Shown: in pieces, positions 12,751 to 60,700 of the stretch
Layout: each line of letters starts with the position of its first letter
Position numbering within the stretch: position 1 is the first letter of the stretch
DNA from: Crambe crambe
Taxonomy: Eukaryota; Porifera; Demospongiae; Poecilosclerida; Crambeidae
DNA: 64,000 nt
NCBI GenBank assembly: GCA_963924555.1
Contig: OZ004583.1
Span: 1,021,001 to 1,085,000 of the forward strand
Reading direction: 5' to 3'
Position numbers and translations under genes: made by a program
The notes under the pieces: generated by a model
The model's database searches: none
What the model was told of the DNA's origin: nothing
The model's input: the letters and a program-made list of their open reading frames with translations, nothing else

Positions 12751-13612
12751 TCATTTGCAAGTACTGGTACTGGCACTGCATCTCTTTGGACGTATCTTCA
12801 TTTGAATCTTTGTAAACTTGACCAATCTTGATCCATTGTGCCAGCTAGGATGAGAAGATGTATAGTTGCCATTGAGGATGGCATTAGAACAATGGCCGTG
12901 CCACCATGCACCATGTGGTACAGCACAGTTGCCACTACTGCTATCATTATCACGGTCTGGAGTGCTAAAAGACCTTCCATTGTTATAAGCCATTGAATCA
13001 TGTGTACCACCCACTCCCTGGCCTTGTCCAATGGTTAGTCGGTAGTTGGTTTCAGCCCCACCCACTTTGAATAGTTTGTAGGTCCAAACAACGGATGGTT
13101 TGGGCCCATTCCCAAGTTCAATACGCAGTTCCACATCCTCTGGTGTGGTGAGGCAGTGAATCTTTTCCAGTCCATACCAAAATTCTCCCTCCAGATCTCC
13201 AAAACCACTCACATAGTCAGTCCAATTGCGATAGAAGTTGACAGAGCCATTGATCCTACGCTGGATGACCAACCACTTCCCTCCATCTGTCTCCATGTCA
13301 CAACGAGCAAATAACTTCAAATTGCCTGTTTGAAAGCTGGAAGCAACATTGCAGACATCTGCTATTTCATAACTGCCAGAATTTGCAGGTGGAAATAGCT
13401 CTTTGATCTAGCAAAGAAGATAATGATGAATTATTTCAAACACAAGGCAGTTTACGTACCTGACAGCAGTCATGGAATTCAGCACCAGAACAACTTCCTC
13501 TCAAAGTTGTCAGATCTTGCAGCAACTTTTGGTAGTTAGTAGCACAGTTAGTGGGAACACCTTGTGCATGGGCAAGAAGGAAAGTTGCAATAACAATGCT
13601 GAGAATACTCAT
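12751..13612 (-). CDS. FReD copy H: secreted fibrinogen-related protein (2 exons)
   Basis: Exon 1 is 13460..13612 and exon 2 is 12751..13407, phase 0; the intron is only 52 bp. The product is 269 aa. Signal peptide MSILSIVIATFLLAHAQG, then the stalk ending EFHDCCQ. The fibrinogen domain has TTPEDVELRIELGNG and a P-subdomain (DRDNDSSSGNCAVPHGAWW, SHPSWHNGSRLVKFTK) close to copy E. All core cysteines and the DRDND site are intact. TATA box at 13684. Secreted lectin-like protein, ligand unknown. Confidence 0.9.
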
Positions 13613-16217: not shown

Positions 16218-18382
16218 TTATGTGATATTCTTTTCACACCTCTTGGGTCGTATCTTCATCTGTACTTTAGTGTAATGGAGGTAATGGGATCCATTATACC
16301 AAGAAAGTCTGTTAGCACCAGGTGAAACAACTCCGCCATCTTCTGGAGTATGCAGTACATACTTTCCATTGAGATTTGAGTGAAAACAGCTATAGTGCCA
16401 CCAGGCTCCTCCGTATGATGCAGCACAGTTACCATCATTGTCACGATCTCGAGTGCTGAAAGGTCTTCCATTTTGATTGGCCATTGCATCATGTGTACCT
16501 CCCACTCCCCTGGCCTGTCCAATGGTCAATTGATAATTAGTTTCAGCCCCACCCACTCTGAAGAGCTGGTAGGTCCAGACTTCAGTAGGTTCTGTCCCAT
16601 TCCCAAGTTCAATACGTAGTTCCACGTCATCTCGTGTGGTGAGGCAGTGGATCTTTTCTAGTCCGTACCAAAATTCTCCCTCCAGATCTCCAAAGCCGTA
16701 CATATAGTCGGTCCAATTGCAATAGAAGTTGACAGAGCCATTGATCCTACGCTGGATGACCAACCACTTTCCTCCGTCTGTCTCCATGTCACAACGAGCA
16801 AATAGATTCATGTTGCCTGCTTGAAAACTTGAAGTAACATTGCAGACATCCACTATTTCATAGCTGCCAGAATTAGCTGACTCCTTTACCTACAACATTT
16901 AAGGATCCACATTAATTTTTAATATCATACATGTAGCTACTTGTGATCATAGCTGTATACATACCTGGCAGCAGTCACGGAATCCAAGAATAGAATCTTT
17001 CTTCAGTGAAGTGTTTTCTTTGTTGTAGAAGTAAAAAGACAATAAAAAAATACCAATAAACAGCAAAATAGAACCATTTCTCCTTAACTGGACCACCATA
17101 TTCTCACTCTCTCTCCGAAACTGAACCTCTTTCCTTAACTTGGTAGCCATTTCCTTACTCTCTCTCTTTAACTCGGCAGCCATATCCTTACTCTCTCTCC
17201 TTAACTCAGCAGCCATATTGTTACTCTCTCTCCTCAACTTGACTGCCATATCGTCACTTTCTTTCTTCAGTAGAGCTATATTCTCAGCGGCTGACTGTAG
17301 ATTGTCTTGCAATTTGACCATAATAGTATTGAGAGCCTGGTGGAAATGTGCCTTATCATCCTGCTCATGTGCTCCAATATCTTTTCTCTTCATCTTCATA
17401 TTACACCCAATCCTCTCGTATTTGCATGATATCACAGTGTGTGCACAGTCGTTTTCAAGATGCTGTTTTATCTCGGCACGTTGCATGCTATCAGGACAGT
17501 CAGGATTGGGGCAAGGAACTGATTTCTTTTCACATATGTCATCATGAATGTCCGTTATGTTGGCATATGTATCCTTCTTTCCACAATACCGACATTTGTA
17601 AGCTCTATTCACACACTGTTCAGTTAAATGCTTATCCAATTCTTCCCTCGATATCATCCGTACTTCATTGTCTTCTTTGCATTTGTTGGGGCATGGAGCT
17701 TTGCAGTTGTTCATAATATGTTCCTCTAGTGTGCCAACAGTTCCTTCCCATCCACATCCTTTCTTAGCATAATCACATTTGACACGGAGAGCTTTAATTT
17801 CTCTTTTACCTAGTGAGTAATTATTATTGAGTGTAAGAGAATGGACTAGAACCTGTAGCTAGATGGAAAGTTGCAGTTAAAGGGTAGCTAGCTATACTAT
17901 CCTACTATAACTTTAAGAAGAAGCTCATACTTAGCTATACTCTCAAAAGGCTAGCTGCTATGATAATAACTTGGCTAATTGCTTCAAGGTAAGCTGCCTT
18001 AAATTCTTTTTTAGTAACAAAGGTTAGTTGGCATGGTTGGTTGGCAGCCTTTAATTACTTACTTAAACATAGTGGCCCTCCGCACACACATACACACCAC
18101 ACAGATCATGTTGTTGCACACAGTCCTGTGATGTGACAAGTTTCACTTCTCTGACTTACTCTTTACATCCATCAAGTACTGTGGCTGCTCCATCCTGCAG
18201 TTGGGACAAGGCTTCACTTTGCCATGTTTATTTAGACAACTTTGACAGAATAGCCTGCCACACTCCCCATGCTGCCATGGGTCTCTAGCTACTGCTAAAC
18301 AGATCAAACACTTCAGAGCATCATCTGGTTCAGACACAAAATTACTCTCGTACCCAGAACTAGTAACTTGGTTAGAGGCCAT
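16218..18382 (-). CDS. RING - TRAF zinc fingers - coiled coil - TM - fibrinogen-domain fusion protein
   Basis: Three exons: 18160..18382, 16965..17809 and 16218..16889, giving 579 aa. The first junction is phase 1 (AGA|gtaagt to tag|GTAAAAG) and restores the typical TRAF text KREIKALRVKC. The second is phase 0. Residues 25-62 form a RING (CLIC, GEC, CQSC, CPNC), with Arg43 where the zinc-ligand His is expected. Residues 84-225 hold about five TRAF-type zinc fingers. Residues 236-318 are a coiled coil with 11-residue repeats (ESKDMAAELKR type). A hydrophobic segment follows (ILLFIGIFLLSFYFY, about 322-336). Exon 2 then ends GFRDCCQ, exactly the end of an ordinary FReD exon 1, and exon 3 is a full fibrinogen domain with DRDND and KIRPKRC. 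There is no signal peptide, so a type II membrane protein is likely: RING/zinc fingers in the cytosol, FReD outside. Its P-subdomain loop is unusually long (HTPEDGGVVSPGANR). Start ATG 18382 has a good context. Function inferred: sensing by FReD, signalling by RING/TRAF. Confidence 0.85.
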
Positions 18383-19075
18383 GTTTAGGGGGTGGTACAG
18401 GTCTGATTGGCAGAGTGAGTAACCCACCCCTTTATTGGGTTGCTCACAGTACACAGTGTATTCATTACATATCAACATATTCATTAATTCTTTATGGTAG
18501 CTATGGTTATTGTTTATGATGCGAGTTGTCAATTGCATCTCATGTTTCATGTTTACTCAAGGTTTGCAGCACTTCAACTGATACACTGAAATGCATCTTT
18601 CAAGTACTTAATGGATCATGAGGGAGTTGATAAGTCAGGAATGCCCCAAACTGCATTTCTAAGTCTACTGTGATTAAGTGGTGGTTCCTAGGTTCCTATC
18701 TTCCAGCTGATTCAGGAGTTCAATTGAGACTGTTCCTATAAATGTCCAGACCAAGTTATCGCTATTCATCATCTAGAAAGTTTGCGTTTGTTCAGAGTCA
18801 CCACCTTAGAGTTAGGAAGCCTCTTCTGTCAGGATATAGTCTTCATGTAGCTACCATCTTTAAGGTAGTAACAGAAGTAAGAACCATAACTCATAAGTAA
18901 ACTGCAGCCCGTAAACTTAACTTATTTTACCCAGGTACACAACTGATCTCCAACTAAAATTGATGGATATAAGTGTTATATTAAGAAGCAGTAATTAAAT
19001 AAGCTGCAAAGGATTAAAGCACACTGAGCACACTGATTAAACTTGTATATATAGTTGGTACACACAAAATAGTTA
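18383..19075. other. Upstream region of the RING-TRAF-FReD gene and 3' flank of copy K
   Basis: The RING frame stays open upstream to about 18550, but without domain similarity; it is treated as 5' UTR or promoter. 18870-19075 repeats the 3' flank of copy F. No further gene seen. Confidence 0.4.
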
Positions 19076-37639: not shown

Positions 37640-40600
37640 ATGTCCAGCTTCTTTTTGCCGAGTAAAAAGGGTTCTTCTTCCAGAGATAGGGGGAGAAGAA
37701 AGAACAAAACTGATAAGAAGGTAATCCATGTTGTATTGAGTTGCTTGTGAAGTTAGAAAGTGATGTGTTTTAATTAGAAAAGCAAACGTGAGGAGGTGAC
37801 AAAGAAACAAAAAAGGTCTTCAAAACTCAATGAAGAAGTAGCAAGCGACTCTGAGGCAGAAAAGTGAGTGATCTATTGGGAGTGGTCACCACACCCACTG
37901 AAAACCCAACCCATTGGAGTAAACATGTATGCATGTGCATGTAGTTGATAGCTGTACCTATTCTTGTTCATACCTACCTAGTGAGTTGGAAAGGAAACGG
38001 CCTCGGAATGCATTTGCAAGGGAGTCCGATTCTGATGATGAGCATGAAACAGCTCCCGAGAAGAGGCTGAGATTAGCCAAGGAGTATCTTGCAAGACTAG
38101 AAGCAGCTGGTATGCGAGATATATCAGACCTTATTGATGTGGCATTTCCGTAATTTACCTGAATGTATTATTAGAGAGAGAAAAGAAAGAAGGAGATGAA
38201 GTTCAGCATGATGCAATAGCTCACCGTCTGCGTGAGGATGCAGTAAGTGGTGCTAATTTGTAGCAAACAAGTAAACAGTGACTCTATTGTCTCATGGCAG
38301 CTTGAACAAGCCGGAAAGCTGCAGAGGAAAGTTGCTGACAAGGCAAGTTTCACTTAATAAGTTCCCATAGTAACCATGTATTTGAAACCACACACATTTG
38401 TAGTATGTGGCTCCGGATGAGAATAGTATTCGTGTTCTTAGAGGACACCAGCTGCCTGTGACGTGCGTTATCGTAACACCTGACGACAGATACATCTATT
38501 CTGGCTCAAAGGATTGCTGCATTATCAAATGTAGGAAAAAGAATCAAGGCCTTGAGAGAAAGTAACTTCTCTTTTTCTTCCCTTGATAGGGGAACTTGAA
38601 AGTGGTAAGAAGGAGGTCATATTTTCCGGTCACCGTAAAGGCATAGAGGGTGTGGTTGGACACACTGGGCATATCTTGGCTCTGGCGGTTAGCTCAGATG
38701 GAAAGTACCTGGTGAGTAATCAATTAGGAGTTGGAATGAAGTATTTTTTATGTATCATTCCTATTAGGCTAGTGGAGGACAGGACAAAGTGGTTCATGTA
38801 TGGGACGTGGACACCAACCTCCACTTGCACACTTTCAGGGGACATAAGGATACTGTCACGGTGAGTCTCTATGTGATGTGAGTGGATCTAGGAAAAGAAG
38901 ACACTAAATTTGTTCCTTATAAGCATGCCTAGACTCACTTCTGAACTTTGCCCAAGGCTATAAATTTTTTTTGCTAGACCAAGAATGTGCATTCAGCATT
39001 TTGCCTAGATTCAGTTTTAACAACAAAAAATGTTCCCAAAAATTCTTAGCCATTTTTTAGCACAAAATTATTAACTTGCCAAGACCAAATTAAATGTGAA
39101 TCTGCATGATGGTTTTGACTGGTATAGCTAATGTCCATGGAATCTTGACTTATGGTATACAGTGAGACTGTTCTGGATTTTTTAGGGTCTGGCATTTCAG
39201 AACGGAACACACGAGCTCTTTAGCTGCTCATTTGATCGGACAGTCAAGATCTGGAACTTGGACGAGATGGCGTATGTGGAGACACTGTGAGTACTCTGTG
39301 AGCCCCCTTGTCCCCTAACTCCTCCCTGTGAGCCCCCTCGTCCCCTAACTCCTCCCTGTGAGCCCCCTCGTCCCCTAACTCCTCCCTGTGAGCCCCCTCG
39401 TCCCCTAACTCCTCCCTGTGAGCCCCCTCCTCCCTGTGAGTCCCCTCGTCCCCTAACTCCTCCCTGTGAGCCCCCTCGTCCCCTAACTCCTCCCTGTGAG
39501 CCCCCTCCTCCCTGTGAGTCCCCTCGTCCCCTAACTCCTCCCTGTGAGCCCCCTCGTCCCCTAACTCCTCCTCGATATTTTTTAGTTTTGGTCACCAAGA
39601 TGGTGTATCTTCCATTGACTGCCTTCAGCGGGAGAGGCCGGTCACAGCCGGGACCAACGACAGGAGTTTGAGGGTCTGGAAGGTCATTGAAGAATCACAG
39701 CTGGTCTTCCATGGACACAAGTCAGTGTTACAGAGTGACGTTTGGGACCGAGTCTGATTTTGCTGATGTATGATTTTTTTTTTCAGGGCTTCCATCGATG
39801 CTGTTAGATTCATTAATGAAGAATACATGATATCTGGTTCTCAAGATGGGTAAGTTGAAAGTGCACTGTCGGCCAATAACACTCAAACTTCGTTGCTTGA
39901 CACTATTACTTCAGCCAGCAAGGTCACATGGACCAATCAGATTCATGCTGACATCATTGCCTGCAAATCTGATTGGTCCATGTGACCTCGGTGGCTGAAG
40001 TACTAGTGTCAAGCAACCTGCAATCCACAGTACTGTAGATTTCATGATGGTTGTCCATAAGGAATGAGAAATAGGTAGTGGCTTACAAGGACCTAAGAAA
40101 CCTTTCATGTCCCATGCAGTTATAAGTGTCCTGACAACTAACCTGCAGTGGACAGTAGCTGGTTATAATTATGTCTGGTGATTTCCTCTTGAGAGTGGGA
40201 AAGCTGCACCATGACTGGTTTAATTTAATTGGTATGATAATGAGTGGACCTCAGTTATAGTTTCACTTTAGCAGCTGTTACAGGTCCTTTGGTTGTTGGT
40301 GTTATCAGTAAGGAAGTGTTCATATGAGCACTTAGCAATAACTTTCAAGAGACCTACTTATTATGTACAGAACTGTTGAAAAATTATCAGGTCAATATTT
40401 TCCCCCCATAGTTTTCCCATTTTTAGGTTAGTTTTCCCATGTTCTGATATTCAAGTTGCCATGGTGTTGCTTTTTTTAGCAGTGTGGCACTGTGGAATGT
40501 CATGAAGAAGAAACCAGTTGTCACTCGAATGCACCACCACCTTCCCTCAGAAGAGGAAGAGGTAAGCAAGGCTAGAGAGCATTGGGTGACTTCTGTGACA

Positions 40601-41940: not shown

Positions 41941-44331
41941 TTATAGTCTTATCCCACATTGCTTGTGTGCACTCACTGTTGTGATGTACTCTGAGCGATT
42001 CCACTTAAAATTACCCACTCTGTTGATATCGCCTGGGGGCGCCCACTGCTGACTGGAGGGGTACTCCTGTATGATGACGGCCATCCCTTCCAACTGGTGC
42101 GACTCAATGTGACAGTGCATGAACCAGTAGCCGGGATTGTTTGCCTCGAAGGCAATCACCACATACCCTCCTGCTGGTACAATGATGGTGTCTTTGCGTA
42201 TGGCTTGCTTTCGAACTCGCTTTTGATTTTTGTTGAAAGGGGGTCCTTTTCTCCAGTGGGGAGAAGGACATTGTTCCAAATCATCACAGACAACATCTTG
42301 GTTGTTTTTAATCAGGGTTCCATTTCCTTTGTCGTACTTTCCATGCCTGATGGCAACGACAAAAAAGGTGTGGCCATGAAGATGTATTGGGTGAGTGAAA
42401 TCATTGTTCCCATGGATCAGGTCACCAACAGAACTGAGTACAAAGTTCACAGAGGGATGTTCGGCTGCATTAGGGTCAAAAGTGTCTGATTCTGCAATTT
42501 GTGCAACATTGATACATTCCTGCATATTGGGGTCGGTTTTGATATTCTTGCACACCAGATCATCATTTCGAGCGTCGATATCGTACTGGTCACAATATGT
42601 TTGATAGGGTGTGGTTGGAAAAAGGAAGTTCTTACCATTGATAGCACTAGTTGAACTTTGTCCTTCGAATCCGAAATTGAAAAACTTCAAGTTTTTATCA
42701 TCTTGATCGTGTAGTATCCTAGGAGGGTTTTCCTCAGAGATTTTTGCATTTAATTCATCGAGATGAATGCATCGAGTATTCATCGATGAAGGAAACTCCT
42801 TAAAAGGGCAATTGACAGCCTTGCATTGCTTCCTCCTAGAACAAACCCTCTCCCGTCTGGGGACATTTCTATACTTGTTGAACGGGTTAGGAGCCTTATC
42901 ATAAGACGTGTAGTGTAAGATTCCTTCAGCGCTGTGTTTTTCGTTAACGTTTATACTCTCCAACGTCTCTGCCCTCATCCAATAATTTCCTGGCTGTTTA
43001 TCGGCAGTCAGAATGAAGTCGTAACGTTCCCCACTATGGATTATTATGTAGTCCACTTCCTTTTGTTCAATAAATTGTCCGTCAGTTGCAATAAGAAGTA
43101 GCTTATGTCCATCAATCGAAAACTTGAATGCATACAAACTCTGAGCTCCAATCAAACGAAATCGACAGCTCTTTTTGTGATCAACTTCAAAGATACTGAG
43201 GATGCTGAATGTGTTGTCGTTATGCCTTCCCTTGCCATTCATCAGACCAGACCAGTACGGAACGGGTCCTACTTCGATCCCATCGCTACTTCGTGTGCGT
43301 ATGTACAGATTATTTTCCTGAGTAGGGACCTCCCCAACTGACTGATCGGGGAAAAACCCTAGGGTAGAGTGGATCCTGACAAAGAGATTCAGAGAAGATT
43401 CACGTTCCCAATCCAGGAGGGTAATAGTGTACTTTTCTGGAACATCCACCAAGTCTGTTCCTTGTGGTAAATTCACCATCTTATTGAGTGGATGTTTAAC
43501 TTCCTTGACAATCAGAGCCCCGAAGAGACCGTCTGTTCGTCGAGCGCCAACATGGGAGTGATACCAGTGAGTCCCAGAGGGAAAGGCTTTGAAAATGTAA
43601 TCAAAATAAGCCCCGGGGATGATTGGGGGTTGCGTAATGAATCCCACTCCGTCCATCCAGGGGGTGTACTGCTGATGCATGCCATGCCAGTGAATTGTGA
43701 TCCCCTCGCTGGTAAGCTTATTGAAGACACGGATTTGCACAATTTGATTCTCGTAGACTATCAGTGTTGGTCCTGGAATGCGACCATTGATTGCGATTAT
43801 CATGCGATAAGTTGAGCCGTCCACAGTGATGGGTGTACTGCAACCTTTAGTCATAAAAGAGCTAGAGTTGAGGATTTGCATTTGGTTATTGATATAACAG
43901 TCGCCATATTCGGGAGGTTTGGAGTCCTCAGGGGGAGGGGGAGGGAGGGAAGGAGTAAATCCTCTCCCGTTGAGGTAATAGGTATCACCAGCTGTTCCCT
44001 GCATGGTTCCTTTCGTCTTGATCCGGAGAATATCAAACTCCTCCCTGTGCTCTGTCTTATACTTGTAACTTGTGAAAGTTTGCAGTTCTTTAACTTCCAG
44101 CTCGAACATGCACCCCACTGTTTCGTGTTCAGGACACTCGCAGTATTCTTCTTCATCTGAGCAACGTATGGGAACGCAGCGGGGATGGAATTGGGGCCCA
44201 CTATTGGGGGGAATTGCAGATTGTTTTCCATTTATAGAGGGGCTGGGATTTTTTGTAATGGTGATACCCTTGATTTGCAGGATCAGTGATAATGCTGCTA
44301 CTGTGTGGACGAGGAGCAATCCTTGCCTCAT
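41941..44331 (-). CDS. Secreted multicopper oxidase (laccase/ferroxidase-like), intronless
   Basis: A single uninterrupted frame of 796 aa. Residues 1-22 form a signal peptide (MRQGLLLVHTVAALSLILQ). A cysteine-rich segment lies at about 51-75. Three cupredoxin domains are implied by the four copper motifs: HWHG (about 214-217), HWYHSH (255-260), HPIHLHGH (about 647-654) and HCHIESHQLEGM (about 739-750). The residue ten after the T1 cysteine is Met, typical of low-to-medium potential enzymes. Family members oxidise phenols, ferrous iron or ascorbate with reduction of oxygen to water; the substrate cannot be read from the sequence. The length exceeds typical laccases (about 500-600) because of the N-terminal extension. 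No GPI or TM tail. A TATAAATA element lies 30-38 bp upstream. Confidence 0.93.
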   Translation of the reverse strand: MRQGLLLVHTVAALSLILQIKGITITKNPSPSINGKQSAIPPNSGPQFHPRCVPIRCSDEEEYCECPEHETVGCMFELEVKELQTFTSYKYKTEHREEFDILRIKTKGTMQGTAGDTYYLNGRGFTPSLPPPPPEDSKPPEYGDCYINNQMQILNSSSFMTKGCSTPITVDGSTYRMIIAINGRIPGPTLIVYENQIVQIRVFNKLTSEGITIHWHGMHQQYTPWMDGVGFITQPPIIPGAYFDYIFKAFPSGTHWYHSHVGARRTDGLFGALIVKEVKHPLNKMVNLPQGTDLVDVPEKYTITLLDWERESSLNLFVRIHSTLGFFPDQSVGEVPTQENNLYIRTRSSDGIEVGPVPYWSGLMNGKGRHNDNTFSILSIFEVDHKKSCRFRLIGAQSLYAFKFSIDGHKLLLIATDGQFIEQKEVDYIIIHSGERYDFILTADKQPGNYWMRAETLESINVNEKHSAEGILHYTSYDKAPNPFNKYRNVPRRERVCSRRKQCKAVNCPFKEFPSSMNTRCIHLDELNAKISEENPPRILHDQDDKNLKFFNFGFEGQSSTSAINGKNFLFPTTPYQTYCDQYDIDARNDDLVCKNIKTDPNMQECINVAQIAESDTFDPNAAEHPSVNFVLSSVGDLIHGNNDFTHPIHLHGHTFFVVAIRHGKYDKGNGTLIKNNQDVVCDDLEQCPSPHWRKGPPFNKNQKRVRKQAIRKDTIIVPAGGYVVIAFEANNPGYWFMHCHIESHQLEGMAVIIQEYPSSQQWAPPGDINRVGNFKWNRSEYITTVSAHKQCGIRL

Positions 44332-44360
44332 GATGGAACAGTCTTATGCTGCATGAAAGA

Positions 44361-48966: not shown

Positions 48967-50153
48967 TTACAAAATAGTACATCGAAGCATTTGGCCGGGA
49001 TCTGCCTCAATTCTGTTTTCTGTAACCTGTTGTCAGCAACACAACAATAATATGGTTGGAGGTAAGAGCTAATCTGGCATAGCCAGCCCCAAGCACCAAA
49101 GGCACAAGGATCTGGTGTTTGGGGGCAGGACGCAGATGACGCTTCAAATAATCCATGTGTCATGATGATACTTTTGCTAAATGAACAAGTCCAAGTATTA
49201 TATGTCACCAGACCCTCACGCCTTCGGCGCTTGGGGAGCATCACAGGACTTGGGGAACAGCATTGCAAGAAGACGACCTAAGGCCACATCAACTTAATTA
49301 CTTGTTTATCATCCCCTCCCTCTCCTAATTTTTGCACTTTTGGACCTTTAATTTTATTTCTACTGAGCATGCGCATGATGTGCTCTATTTGAAATTCAGG
49401 TATGATTTTCAGTGTCACAGTGATTTTAGTTTATGGCGTTTGTTATTCTTCACATAAGGTGTGCAGCTACTACAGCTTTTTGGTTTTCATTAAATTTCAG
49501 CTTTTTGTGTTTTTATAATCATATCTTGTTTGCTTTTTTTGTGGAATAAGATCGTGTATAAATAGTTGCCATGGAAACTGATAAAAAATAAAAATAAAAG
49601 CCTCCCCCCTCTCCTATTTTTTTTTGAAGAAATTGGGATGATAAATAAGTAATTAATTTGATGTGGCCTAATGGCTTCATTAGTCACGGCCCCTGCTATT
49701 GAACTACTAGTAGTAGTAGTAGTAGTAGTTGTAATGCACTATATATATCTGTACCTGTGAAGGTGGTTTGTGTTTAGGGTACTCTACTTCAATGATCTTC
49801 ACAGCATCTCCTGCATAACATGTTATAGCTCAGAGTTAAGATCGAGTTAAGTACCCACCTATTTTTTTAACTAGTTTTTCATCGGCGCCCTTCTTTTTCA
49901 AGTCCTCTTCAAACTTCTTCAGCTTTTCAGGATCAATGCCCTCCTCCCATAGTATGCTTATAAACTTGCTCATCTTTTCAGGGTCTTTCTTGGTCGCTTC
50001 CGAAAAGATCTCGACAAACTGCCCTGCTTTTTCAAAGGGTGTTTGAGCTCCATCGATCACCTGCTGCTCCTTCCTCCCGATCAAACCCTGAGAGACAGCC
50101 AGTTCTGCAAGACTTGCAGTTCCATCGATTATGTCTTGGTTATTTGCCATCAT
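48967..50153 (-). CDS. CaaL gene 2: small helical CARD-like protein with C-terminal CTIL
   Basis: Exons 49859..50153, 49755..49810 and 48967..49026; 136 aa. Exon 1 is almost identical to gene 1 (MMANNQDIIDGTASLAELAV), with KKGADEKLVKKIG at the end. Exon 2 encodes DAVKIIEVEYPKHKPPSQ. Exon 3 encodes VTENRIEADPGQMLRCTIL and stop. Exon 3 is thus more diverged than exon 1, but the CaaL end is kept. Intron 2 is 728 bp. Its upstream 80 bp recurs inverted at 51213-51293. Cytosolic, prenylated by prediction. Confidence 0.75.
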
Positions 50154-50159
50154 GGTGTT

Positions 50160-51776
50160 AGGCCAAACAAATTTAAATTTTATTTTTTCATAGATATAAG
50201 AGGTTTTACGGGATTGGAAACGCCCAATGAACTGCACAACCGAGGCGCGTTGACAGATGCGCACGCGCATGCAGCATTAATTATATTAATGGCCGTGAAA
50301 GGAGATCAATATTCACTCCTTTCAAGGCAGTTAAAGTGATGTTCTGCCCCTACAGCTCACAGAATAGTACAAGTAAGCTAAGGGGAAGGTATTGAAGAAG
50401 TGAAGAGTCAGAGAGTTGAAGTTGGAGAGTCTGAGGAAGGAAGTTATTAATTATTCATAACTTTTTTCCTTGTAATTATGAGTACCTATCATTGCTCATT
50501 ATACATTGATTTTATGTGATTGATTTGAAAGAAAGGCCAGAATGACTTTTGGTATTAAAATTAGACATAAATTCATCATTATTATAGCTAGATAATTTTG
50601 CCCCAAAGTTATCCGCCAGTTTCTGCTCAGTTCTCCCTCATCAGCATTATTGCAATACTTCCAGCTTTTGGCTGTTGGATTTTGACACCATCCACCTCAA
50701 GAATTCAGCTCAGTCAGCTGTCCTGTGGACCCTATGGATATTAGGGGGGAAATATAGTAAGCTTGCCATCTCCATAGGATGACTATTGTATAGAAAACGA
50801 ATGCACCAATTCCATTTACTGTTCTATCCTTTCCCTGAAATAACTAATACAGTTGCAATATTGTTAATCTATTTCTTGGGAGAGGGATTACAGTTTTAAC
50901 ACCACTTGCAAATGCTAGAGACAATATATGTCAGCTAATACAAAAACTAACATTACTATTCCATGTAGCTAAAGTTTACATGCCTTTTGATCAGAAAATG
51001 GGCAACAGCAATTGATTCTATCAAGCGTGAGAGGGATTATAGTCCCATTAACCACTACAGTAGTATTTGTAGGATTAAACTTGAAAATCTGAGCTAAAAT
51101 TTATTTCATACAGTAAATCTATGCCCTAGTGTATTATAGTATCATTGGCATAAGTCTTACCTCACGGATCTTGTCAGAACAGCAACTTTGACAAAAGTGC
51201 TATGTCATTCAGCTGTCAACGCGCCTCGGTTGTTAGTTGCTAACGAGAGCACGTGATCCGTTTCCAATCCCGTAAACATCTTATATCTATGATTTTTTTC
51301 AGAAATATGCATGCGCGCGCATGCGGGATGTGCCTAACGCCTATTAATTTTATTGAAACCACACCCACTTCCGGTCACAACCCCCCCCCCCCCCGTTTAT
51401 TTAGCGCGCACGTCCTCCCAAGGGACGTGCTGTCCTCGCCTGGAACGTTGACCACCCTCCAGTCTCTAGCGAGACAAAAGGGAACTCGCAAACTAATGAA
51501 CTCTAGTGCGCATGCGCAATAAGAATTTAACCACGAAATTTTAATATAAAAAATTATGAGAAACTAATAATAAAAATTGTGTGGCCAGGCCAGACTCTTT
51601 TTCTTGGGGGCGATAGCTCGCGCCAAAATTTCCCAGCAAACACGAACTTTGCCTTATTACTTACTTCCTATGGTGTAGGTCGACAATAATGACTGATTAA
51701 ATTGACAAATTACCAAGTTATAGTTATACTACAGGGTTTAGTAGTAGCTAAGTAATATTAATTTTCTAGCCTAAGC
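50160..51776. other. Intergenic region between CaaL genes
   Basis: 50195-50262 and 51213-51293 are inverted copies of the CaaL 5' flank (gggattggaaacg, accgaggcgcgttgacag). A poly-C run lies near 51381. The tract 51585-51640 (ggccagactctttttcttgg) is repeated at 54603-54655. No gene recognised. Confidence 0.45.
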
Positions 51777-58791: not shown

Positions 58792-60521
58792 TCACAATAT
58801 GCTACATGGAACACCCACAAGGTCTGCCTGCACTCTCTTCTTCTCCTGCGCAAGAGCATACACATAATCATTATAACATCAACCATAGGGAGGTGATTAT
58901 ATTTTCTGAAATCTCACTACTTGCTTAACTAGGTGGGACAGTGGAATGTGTTTCATGATAATCTGATGTGGAGTCACTGCGTCCACTAATTGAGGGGCTT
59001 TACTCTCTTATTTATAATTATATTTAAGGTGGTGGGCCAGTAAAAAATTTAACTCGTCATTTTGTATACGATATCGAAGAAATTTAGTACTCTAGTGGAA
59101 TGATAGTGATACTGTTTATCAGCAGAGTCAAGTCAGCATGTAGTAAGCCAGTGTCAAACAACATCCACGTGAAGTTTATCGAACTTCTGGAAGTCTCATC
59201 CACACCTGAAGCAAACTACTTTTTTTTACACTGCGGGGGGCTACATAGAGATTGTATCATTATTGTTGCAAAGAGAGACCTCGATCTGGCTGTCTTTGTA
59301 GGTGTGACTTTAATTTTACCATGTGAAATTTTTTCTCTTGCCCACCACCTTAATTATTTGGTTGATACCATAAAATTAAGCAGTGTGTGCTCCCCCTTAA
59401 CATTACTGTAGACTCATCATTATAGTTGAACAGTGACACTACAACAAAGTTTACCACCCTTCAATGGGGAACCCACCCCATGCTAACCTCAATGTCCCAT
59501 ATCTTAACCCACAAATTCAGAATATTAGCTGATAATATTAACCTCTTATCAAAACAAAAAACAAAACACGCACACACACGCCTGCATCCATACATGCACG
59601 CACACACGCATGCATGCACACGGGGTATGGGTAGGGGTGCATTAGATTGTGATCATAAGCAGGGTTCTCCCCAGGATTCATCAAAGGCATAGGGGCAAGA
59701 CTGGCAAGACCATCATGAAGAATGTGTAAAAGCCAGCCACCAGTAAGGCACAGTGGCAAGATATAAGGAATAGCTGAAGGCATAGTGGCAAGACATAAGG
59801 GGGAAGAACTGAAGGCATAGTGGCAAGATATAAGGCATAGCTGAAGGCATAGTGGCAAGACATAAGGCATAGGGGGAAGAACTGAAGGCATAGTGGCAAG
59901 ATATAAGGCATAGGGGAAGAACTGAAGGCATAGGGGCCCACTATGCCTTAAGATACCTGGGGAGAACCCTGATAAGATTTTAGGTTGATTCTAAGGAGGT
60001 ATATGGTTGTGGTAGAAGCAGCACAGCAGATGGCTTCCTACCCCCTGACACACACAAGTCAGAATAATGATGAGGTCAGCTAGTTACGATGTATATATAC
60101 GGACTGTTAACCATACCTGTGGTAGTGGAGAAAGCTTCTCTGTTGCAAGCTTTTTCATAGCATCTTCTGCAGATTGAGGGATTGAGAAACTGGCCAATTG
60201 AGTATTAACAATAACAAACTTACCCACTTCCTTGATCAACTTTTCATCAGCTCCCTCCTGCTTCAGTATCGCTACGAATTTCCCCAGCACTTCAAGATCG
60301 ATCCCTTCCCCTTGTAGCATGTCCACAAACTTCTTCATTGCCTCGGGATCATTGGTCACCTCCGAGAATACTTGGATAAACTTGCTTGCTCTTTCGAACG
60401 GAGTTTCAGCTGTGTAGATTGCGTTCCGTTGTTCTTTGGTGATCAAGCCTATGGCGACTGCATTGTCTGTAAGGGTTGCTGTTCCATCAGTTATGTCCTC
60501 TCCTGTTCGCTCACTTGCCAT
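58792..60521 (-). CDS. CaaL gene 7 (F type): helical CARD-like protein with C-terminal CSIL
   Basis: Exons 60224..60521, 60117..60166 and 58792..58845; 133 aa. Exon 1 encodes MASERTGEDITDGTATLTDN, GLITKEQRNAIYTAETPFER and FIQVFSEVTNDPEAMKKFVD. Exon 2 encodes DAMKKLATEKLSPLPQ. Exon 3 encodes EKKRVQADLVGVPCSIL, stop. Intron 1 is only 57 bp and has no stop, so unspliced read-through would extend the frame. Intron 2 is 1.27 kb and carries the repeat at 59690-59950. The promoter region faces the Ig/FN3 receptor gene, 180 bp away, in divergent orientation. Confidence 0.72.
59650..59960. repeat. Tandem ~27-bp repeat in intron 2 of CaaL gene 7
   Basis: Units contain gaaggcatagtggcaagata and taaggcatag; about seven variants. 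Related, inverted sequence lies at 41590-41830, and both are bounded by a gggagaaccctgat motif. Confidence 0.75.
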
Positions 60522-60700
60522 GACTATCCTCTCAGCTCAATTTAGCCTCGTCCCCAGGCTCGAGACTGCAGTCCTGGCATGGCATGCATGGCACGCCTCA
60601 GACCCCCCCCCCCCGGCCCCCCGGACTCGACTGGCACCGCCCCCCAGAGAAATGCGCATGCTCACTAGTCTGCTCGCTAGCTCGCTCTTATCGCTTCATC

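Follow-up and report, generated by a model that had tools for sequence, protein, structure and literature searches.

The window (the whole stretch of 64,000 nucleotides from Crambe crambe analyzed here, C5:1021001-1085000) probably contains a real fused gene, one of no fewer than three intact copies in its genome, whose product is predicted to be a type II single-pass membrane lectin with a TRAF-like, putative ubiquitin ligase cytosolic end. In the copy located within the window (copy A), three minus-strand exons join across a phase-1 and then a phase-0 junction to give a predicted frame of 579 codons (580 with the stop). The domain order was a RING-like domain, TRAF-type zinc fingers, a coiled coil of 11-residue repeats, one hydrophobic span, and a fibrinogen-related domain (FReD) (Table 1). 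This fused three-exon model, proposed in an earlier sequence-only reading of the window, was borne out to the base, and the splice sites matched the consensus. The same reading knew of no described protein with this order, and our searches agree: a RING/TRAF-FReD protein was not described in the open-licence literature searched, although one in a closed paper may have escaped notice. Likewise, zf-TRAF and Fibrinogen_C occurred together in 0 of 97 matches from a protein collection (7996 candidates sharing most words were scored), which included no full-length form or orthologue. In what three papers (PMC6208332, PMC8242945, and PMC6321704) say about fibrinogen and TRAF, genes of the two kinds are named apart from one another.

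Table 1. Features of the fused gene, its fusion point, and its further copies. Positions without a contig prefix are window positions; a slash marks a splice site.
Feature	Position	Strand	Description	Basis
Exon 1	18160..18382	-	ATG at 18382, N-terminal tail, RING-like domain, phase-1 donor TAAAGA/GTAAGT	Spliced model, Pfam, AlphaFold RING matches
Intron 1	17810..18159	-	350 bp, GTAAGT...CTCACTAG	Splice position common to copies B and C
Exon 2	16965..17809	-	Zinc fingers, hendecad coiled coil, span, tail derived from FReD exon 1	Spliced model, Pfam, repeat, fold model
Tandem repeat	17127..17252	-	33-bp unit, 3.8 copies, encodes the 11-residue coiled-coil repeat	Repeat search
Hydrophobic span	17022..17078	-	NGSILLFIGIFLLSFYFYN, residues 319-337, two Arg on the N side, predicted type II signal anchor	Hydropathy
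Part of exon 2 matching C8 RING-TRAF(-TM)-MATH genes	16996..17809	-		DNA matches
Fusion point	16987..16995	-	9 bp, matched by neither parent	DNA matches
Ordinary FReD exon 1 end and first intron bases	16949..16986	-	TGGATTCCGTGACTGCTGCCAG/GTATGT...	DNA match
Intron 2	16890..16964	-	75 bp	Near-identical across copies A to D
Exon 3	16218..16889	-	FReD, ends in TAA	Spliced model, Pfam
Decayed MATH remnant	18692..18766	-	Upstream of exon 1	Matches MATH of four TM-TRAF genes (25 residues, 76-80% identical)
Copy B	C5:992306-990204		Intact frame, 575 codons with stop	Same exons, splice dinucleotides, and phases as copy A
Copy C	C5:1001811-999606		Intact frame, 605 codons with stop	Same exons, splice dinucleotides, and phases as copy A
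Copy D (short; L039)	C5:989965-989152		Starts within the span; keeps stalk, intron, and FReD; no RING/TRAF part	

Pfam identified Fibrinogen_C (E 1.2e-48) and two stretches of zf-TRAF (E 9.4e-18) in the spliced copy A protein, and no MATH match in the spliced proteins of copies A, B, and C. The junction between exons 1 and 2 is independently supported because an alignment to TRAF6 (5vo0) passes over it without a break (SKREIKALRVKC versus AKREILSLTVKC). The exon 2 acceptor reads ...CTCACTAG/GTAAAAG, and the donor side reads GFRDCCQ/GTATGT in phase 0. GFRDCCQ had been described as the exact end of an ordinary FReD exon 1, which holds for one neighbor (its exon ends at C5:1042951), but the others end in AFRDCCQ, GFHDCCQ, AFYDCCQ, and similar sequences. 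The inheritance of the FReD exon pair from the surrounding array stood, with the sequence from 16986 to 16950 aligning with that GFRDCCQ neighbor over the splice site (89%). Apart from its opening bases, intron 2 did not resemble the introns of 14 ordinary FReDs. A separate first exon for 16218-16889, named in the earlier reading as the alternative to a fusion, was sought in the interval bounded by the signal-peptide exons at 13612 and 19986 and was rejected, since nothing there except the GFRDCCQ tail of exon 2 had an E value better than 1.

It is improbable that the locus works instead through two transcripts, with a truncated RING-TRAF protein, or with the FReD exon used mainly with the 19986-19834 exon of the neighboring gene to give a secreted lectin. 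Skipping to 16889 is possible because both junctions are in phase 0, and the neighboring FReD gene (window 19986-19080) has an intact signal-peptide first exon and a decayed FReD exon, which is interrupted by an in-frame TAG and by what looks like a frame break. However, the consensus splice sites, the conservation of the short intron 2 in four copies, the same layout in copies B and C, and the constraint shared by the FReD and TRAF parts all argue for the fused transcript.

We searched the same genome (143 Mb, 119 contigs) with residues 1 to 356 and, scoring the best candidates, obtained at least 150 matched stretches. Seven stretches on contig C5 were the exons of three copies, and most of the others (at least 150 in all) were on contig C8. 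With copies B and C also intact, the gene occurs at least three times in the genome, and copy A is not a lone oddity. Its recurrence in B and C, within the same array, goes beyond chance, and a chance juxtaposition of unrelated exons was rejected on the shared layout and shared constraint of the three copies. The truncated span of copy D was weakly hydrophobic (octanol, -0.78), and this copy may be a short lectin or a dead fragment. In the protein collection, the TRAF exons of copies A, B, and C were identical to P0098 (250/250), P0001 (328/328), and P0100 (269/269), respectively, all located on one 926-kb contig that may be the same data assembled again. A fourth distinct TRAF exon, P0099, was found on a 46-kb contig; it ends in the span and GFHDCCQ, and 241 of its 261 aligned residues are identical to copy B.

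We estimated omega by Nei and Gojobori counting and assessed significance with the Fisher test. Between copies A and C, omega was 0.21 for the zinc fingers (p 2.9e-4), 0.35 for the FReD (p 1.7e-3), and 0.37 for the whole model (577 codons), with an overall range of 0.33 to 0.39 among the three loci. The zinc-finger and FReD values were both significantly low, so purifying selection has acted on each end of the fusion since copies A and C split. The zinc fingers also had a low omega between copies A and B (0.19; p 3e-4). Values were not significant for the zinc fingers between copies B and C (0.43; p 0.11) and for the short RING exon between copies A and C (0.40; p 0.2), and the span, which is also short, gave 0.13 between A and C (p 0.11) and 1.06, on one synonymous change, between A and B. 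An assembly artefact or a dead gene would suit the repetitive nature of the array, the several decayed FReDs in it, and the possible reuse of data in the 926-kb contig. We consider either very improbable: three separate loci have intact frames at these omega values, and the fourth distinct exon on another contig, like the three intact loci, contradicts an assembly error.

Exon 1 contains the RING-like ligands C25, C28, C41, C46, C49, C59, and C62, with H38 as a possible eighth. In copy A, Pfam RING models matched only under their cutoffs (zf-C3HC4, 19.7 versus 21 bits), and copies B (21.8) and C (21.5) passed the one for zf-C3HC4. We picked 41 distinct family RINGs by pattern from the retrieved loci, and none had the canonical fourth-ligand His. 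A His was found three residues ahead of the conserved third-site Cys in 35 of the 41 (H38 before C41 in copy A), and a Cys stood immediately ahead of that Cys, in place of the His, in 6; this upstream His or adjacent Cys could be a substitute zinc ligand. The seven RING cysteines were invariant in an alignment of 18 sequences. The AlphaFold model of the RING (mean pLDDT, 77.7) matched RING structures, albeit weakly (Ring1B best, E 9.6e-4; TRAF5/6, E 4.4e-3; E ≤ 0.001 in 1 of 827), and showed weak similarity to RINGs solved with E2s. A RING fold in exon 1 is likely. The sequence-only reading had described a ubiquitin-ligase-like end; since this variant RING lacks the canonical His, we treat the ligase activity as putative.

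The same features allow a reading in which a genuine fused gene encodes a cytosolic end that is a mere scaffold, with an inert RING, for a ligand-binding lectin that is internalized or serves as a decoy or in adhesion, much like a FIBCD1 with an inert TRAF-type tail. We regard this as possible but rather unlikely. It would fit the missing canonical His and the score of copy A below the Pfam cutoff, and FIBCD1 is presented as an endocytic type II receptor in PMC9994688 and PMC9449597. Against it stand the invariance of the seven RING cysteines, the possible substitute ligand in all 41 RINGs, the strong constraint on the zinc fingers in both the A-B and A-C comparisons, and the weak likeness of the RING model to E2-bound RINGs.

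The closest solved relatives of the TRAF end by sequence were the RING-ZnF parts of TRAF6 and TRAF5, and many of the zinc-finger Cys and His residues were invariant or nearly so in an alignment of 32 full or partial sequences. The structure model of exon 2 contained finger-like elements and a long helix (exon 2 residues 151-233) that agrees with the coiled coil predicted from the repeats, and its span helix had low confidence (pLDDT of about 35-55). The top fold match was TRAF6 (3hcs; E 1.4e-6), but it was weak, with a TM-score of 0.28 on the query. Hydropathy predicted one span in each of copies A to C, in line with the single membrane segment of the earlier reading. On the octanol scale, the span of copy A summed to -11.7 (next-best window, -3.1), and the best window ranged from -11.5 to -14.1 across the three copies, compared to -0.4 to -3.1 for the next best elsewhere. 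The charges flanking the span were balanced (+2/+2 in copies A and C, +3/+2 in copy B) and favored neither topology. The FReD had 6 to 7 cysteines and 4 to 6 N-glycosylation sequons, with only 0 to 1 sequons ahead of the span. Because there is one span, with a large zinc-finger region without a signal peptide before it and an FReD with cysteines and sequons after it, we argue for a predicted N-in, C-out type II single-pass topology.

A cytosolic TRAF-like protein, with the span staying out of the membrane and the FReD taking the place of MATH as a head that binds substrate or ligand, seems to us quite unlikely. The span is short (about 17 to 19 residues) with balanced flanking charges, and a similar span stands before MATH in five C8 relatives. 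MATH is cytosolic in ordinary TRAFs. However, the span is strongly hydrophobic in copies A to C and in five donors of differing sequence, the FReD retains its cysteines and sequons, and many FReDs of the array are headed by signal-peptide-like exons.

We examined the parentage of the fusion in the 30 best loci from the at least 150 matches, which comprised 3 fusions, 5 loci with a span between the coiled coil and MATH, and 22 loci without one. The five spanned loci (L012, L014, L015, L016, and L018) lie at C8:266-304 kb, and all five have an upstream RING exon; MATH was found by Pfam in the two that were scanned (L012 and L015) and by a match to the MATH of P0002 in all five. The maximum 17-residue hydropathy past residue 60 ranged from 2.05 to 2.79 in the three fusions and five spanned loci, and 21 of the 22 unspanned loci did not exceed 1.31, the exception being L020 (3.79, near the far 3' end of the open frame). 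A phylogenetic tree of 28 of the 30 loci (L019 and L037 were left out) placed the three fusions in one clade (100/100), sister to L016 and L018 (95/92), and both within a group of eight spanned rows (91/86). From these relationships and the DNA matches, the TRAF part and its span clearly trace back to a C8 RING-TRAF-coiled coil-TM-MATH subfamily; the predicted span thus came with the C8 donor and was not made by the fusion.

The last match to C8 (C8:303128-303201, in L018) stops at window position 16996, and the match to the ordinary FReD exon 1 and the start of its intron begins at 16986. Because the two parental homologies end only 9 bp apart, MATH appears to have been exchanged for the FReD just past the span. 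At this point P0006, a public sequence with a span and MATH, reads ...NNENTSLKKDIVSAN, and copies B and C read ...NNKENTSLKKDSILGFRDCCQ. The sequence-only reading had the upstream part of an array FReD gene replaced by TRAF-like exons; the inherited exon pair agrees with this, but the exchange is better described as a MATH swapped for an FReD on the donor. Copy C shares the stretch around the MATH remnant upstream of the RING exon (88%), and this remnant is apparently a relic of a transplanted piece of the C8 array. P0002, a public sequence whose span is much like that of the fusions, had no near-identical copy in the genome (best, 85%, in the C-terminal part). The RING-TRAF-MATH subfamily with a predicted span occupies C8:262-305 kb, and its MATH may lie on either side of the membrane; meprins have an extracellular MATH. 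Two hydrophobic spans were observed in two RING-TRAF-MATH relatives, L014 (C8:273817-275578) and the public P0004 (the latter by eye); with two spans, the RING and the MATH would both face one side of the membrane.

Pairwise comparison of the FReD exons showed a different history for copy B. While those of copies A and C were 93% identical, the FReD exon of copy B (C5:990839-990204, L039) was nearest to an ordinary FReD (C5:1016598-1015960; 91.7%) whose own first exon is signal-peptide-like. When compared in blocks, the first ∼100 bases of the copy B FReD tracked copy D (59/60 and 42/42), and blocks 120-359 resembled the ordinary FReD and copy D alike. Past these, from column 360, copy B was like the ordinary FReD (59/60, 56/60, 56/60, 31/32, 49/49, and 33/33) compared to lower values against copy D (53/60, 49/60, 42/60, 16/26, 45/49, and 28/33), and identity between A and B dropped in places to 38/60 and 11/26. 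The A-B dS was 0.62 for the FReD versus 0.14 for the zinc fingers. In copy C, two blocks (columns 120-239) were identical to another ordinary FReD (60/60 each). As judged from these blocks, the FReD of copy B is a mosaic of a fusion-type 5' part and a rear like that of an ordinary secreted-type FReD. The simplest reading is that gene conversion or unequal crossing-over, in either direction, altered the FReD head and kept the chassis. More tentatively, these genes may form a modular membrane-TRAF system in which a constant chassis carries MATH heads on C8 and FReD heads on C5, the latter exchanged with the secreted-type array to give matched soluble and signaling versions. The same chassis with different FReD heads offers a natural test of head movement between secreted and signaling proteins.

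The RING, TRAF-type zinc fingers, and coiled coil occur in the same order in the TRAF family (TRAF6, TRAF5, TRAF4, and TRAF3), but in place of the MATH/TRAF-C domain the fusion has a span and an FReD. Because MATH is absent, the fusion protein is not a TRAF by definition. The C8 parent subfamily shares the span and differs in ending in MATH. The ordinary FReDs of the array share the exon pair and the DCCQ end, but have signal-peptide-like heads instead. The best solved matches of the FReD were tenascin-R and ficolin-2. To our knowledge, ficolins and tenascins have no intracellular part, and FIBCD1 has no RING or TRAF part. FIBCD1, also described as a type II membrane FReD receptor, has chains that match the copy A FReD (E 2e-37). 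The PA-TM-RING ubiquitin ligases (RNF43/ZNRF3 and GRAIL) are membrane proteins with an outside domain and a RING of their own. Because such receptors are known, the fusion is not categorically new, although in these ligases the orientation is opposite (RING at the C end), the outside domain is another one, and TRAF fingers and a coiled coil are lacking. The predicted protein thus resembles a membrane FReD receptor joined to the front half of a TRAF.

Under the membrane lectin reading that we favor, the coiled coil and the FReD would oligomerize the receptor, and multivalent binding of the FReD to glycans or acetylated groups on microbial or self surfaces would cluster it. Clustering would gather the cytosolic RINGs and TRAF fingers and lead to ubiquitin-based signaling or ubiquitin-driven internalization, and MATH-mediated recruitment to a separate receptor would not be needed. 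Pattern recognition receptors usually reach TRAF ubiquitin ligases via adaptors, and the RINGs of TRAF6 are brought together by adaptors. If the receptor chain is itself TRAF-like, it would bypass an adaptor, as the earlier reading proposed, and would constitute a one-piece pathway from recognition to ubiquitin in an early-branching animal, a sponge. Such a gene could have evolved in three steps: a RING-TRAF-MATH protein would have gained a span between the coiled coil and MATH (the C8 subfamily), a segment of the C8 array would have landed in the C5 FReD array, where an FReD exon pair replaced MATH, and the unit would then have been duplicated, with head sequence exchanged with ordinary FReDs, most clearly in copy B. 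The gene would also show how a receptor of this kind can be put together, because the genome still has relatives of each parent and the junction between the two is narrowed to 9 bp.

We made several further observations. The RING-TRAF expansion in the genome is large, with members on C3, C8, C12, and C18, and none of the 41 distinct RINGs examined from it had the canonical His. Within the window, an open frame of 800 residues (41941-44343) resembles a multicopper oxidase and has an HWHG motif, which we take to be a sign of this family. The open frame at 39197-39694 consists mostly of GGVRGRGGSQ repeats and may be a simple repeat and not a gene. Two open frames of ∼150 residues, at 49836-50276 and 60084-60536, are alike by eye (DGTASLAELAVSQGLI and DGTATLTDNAVAIGLI).
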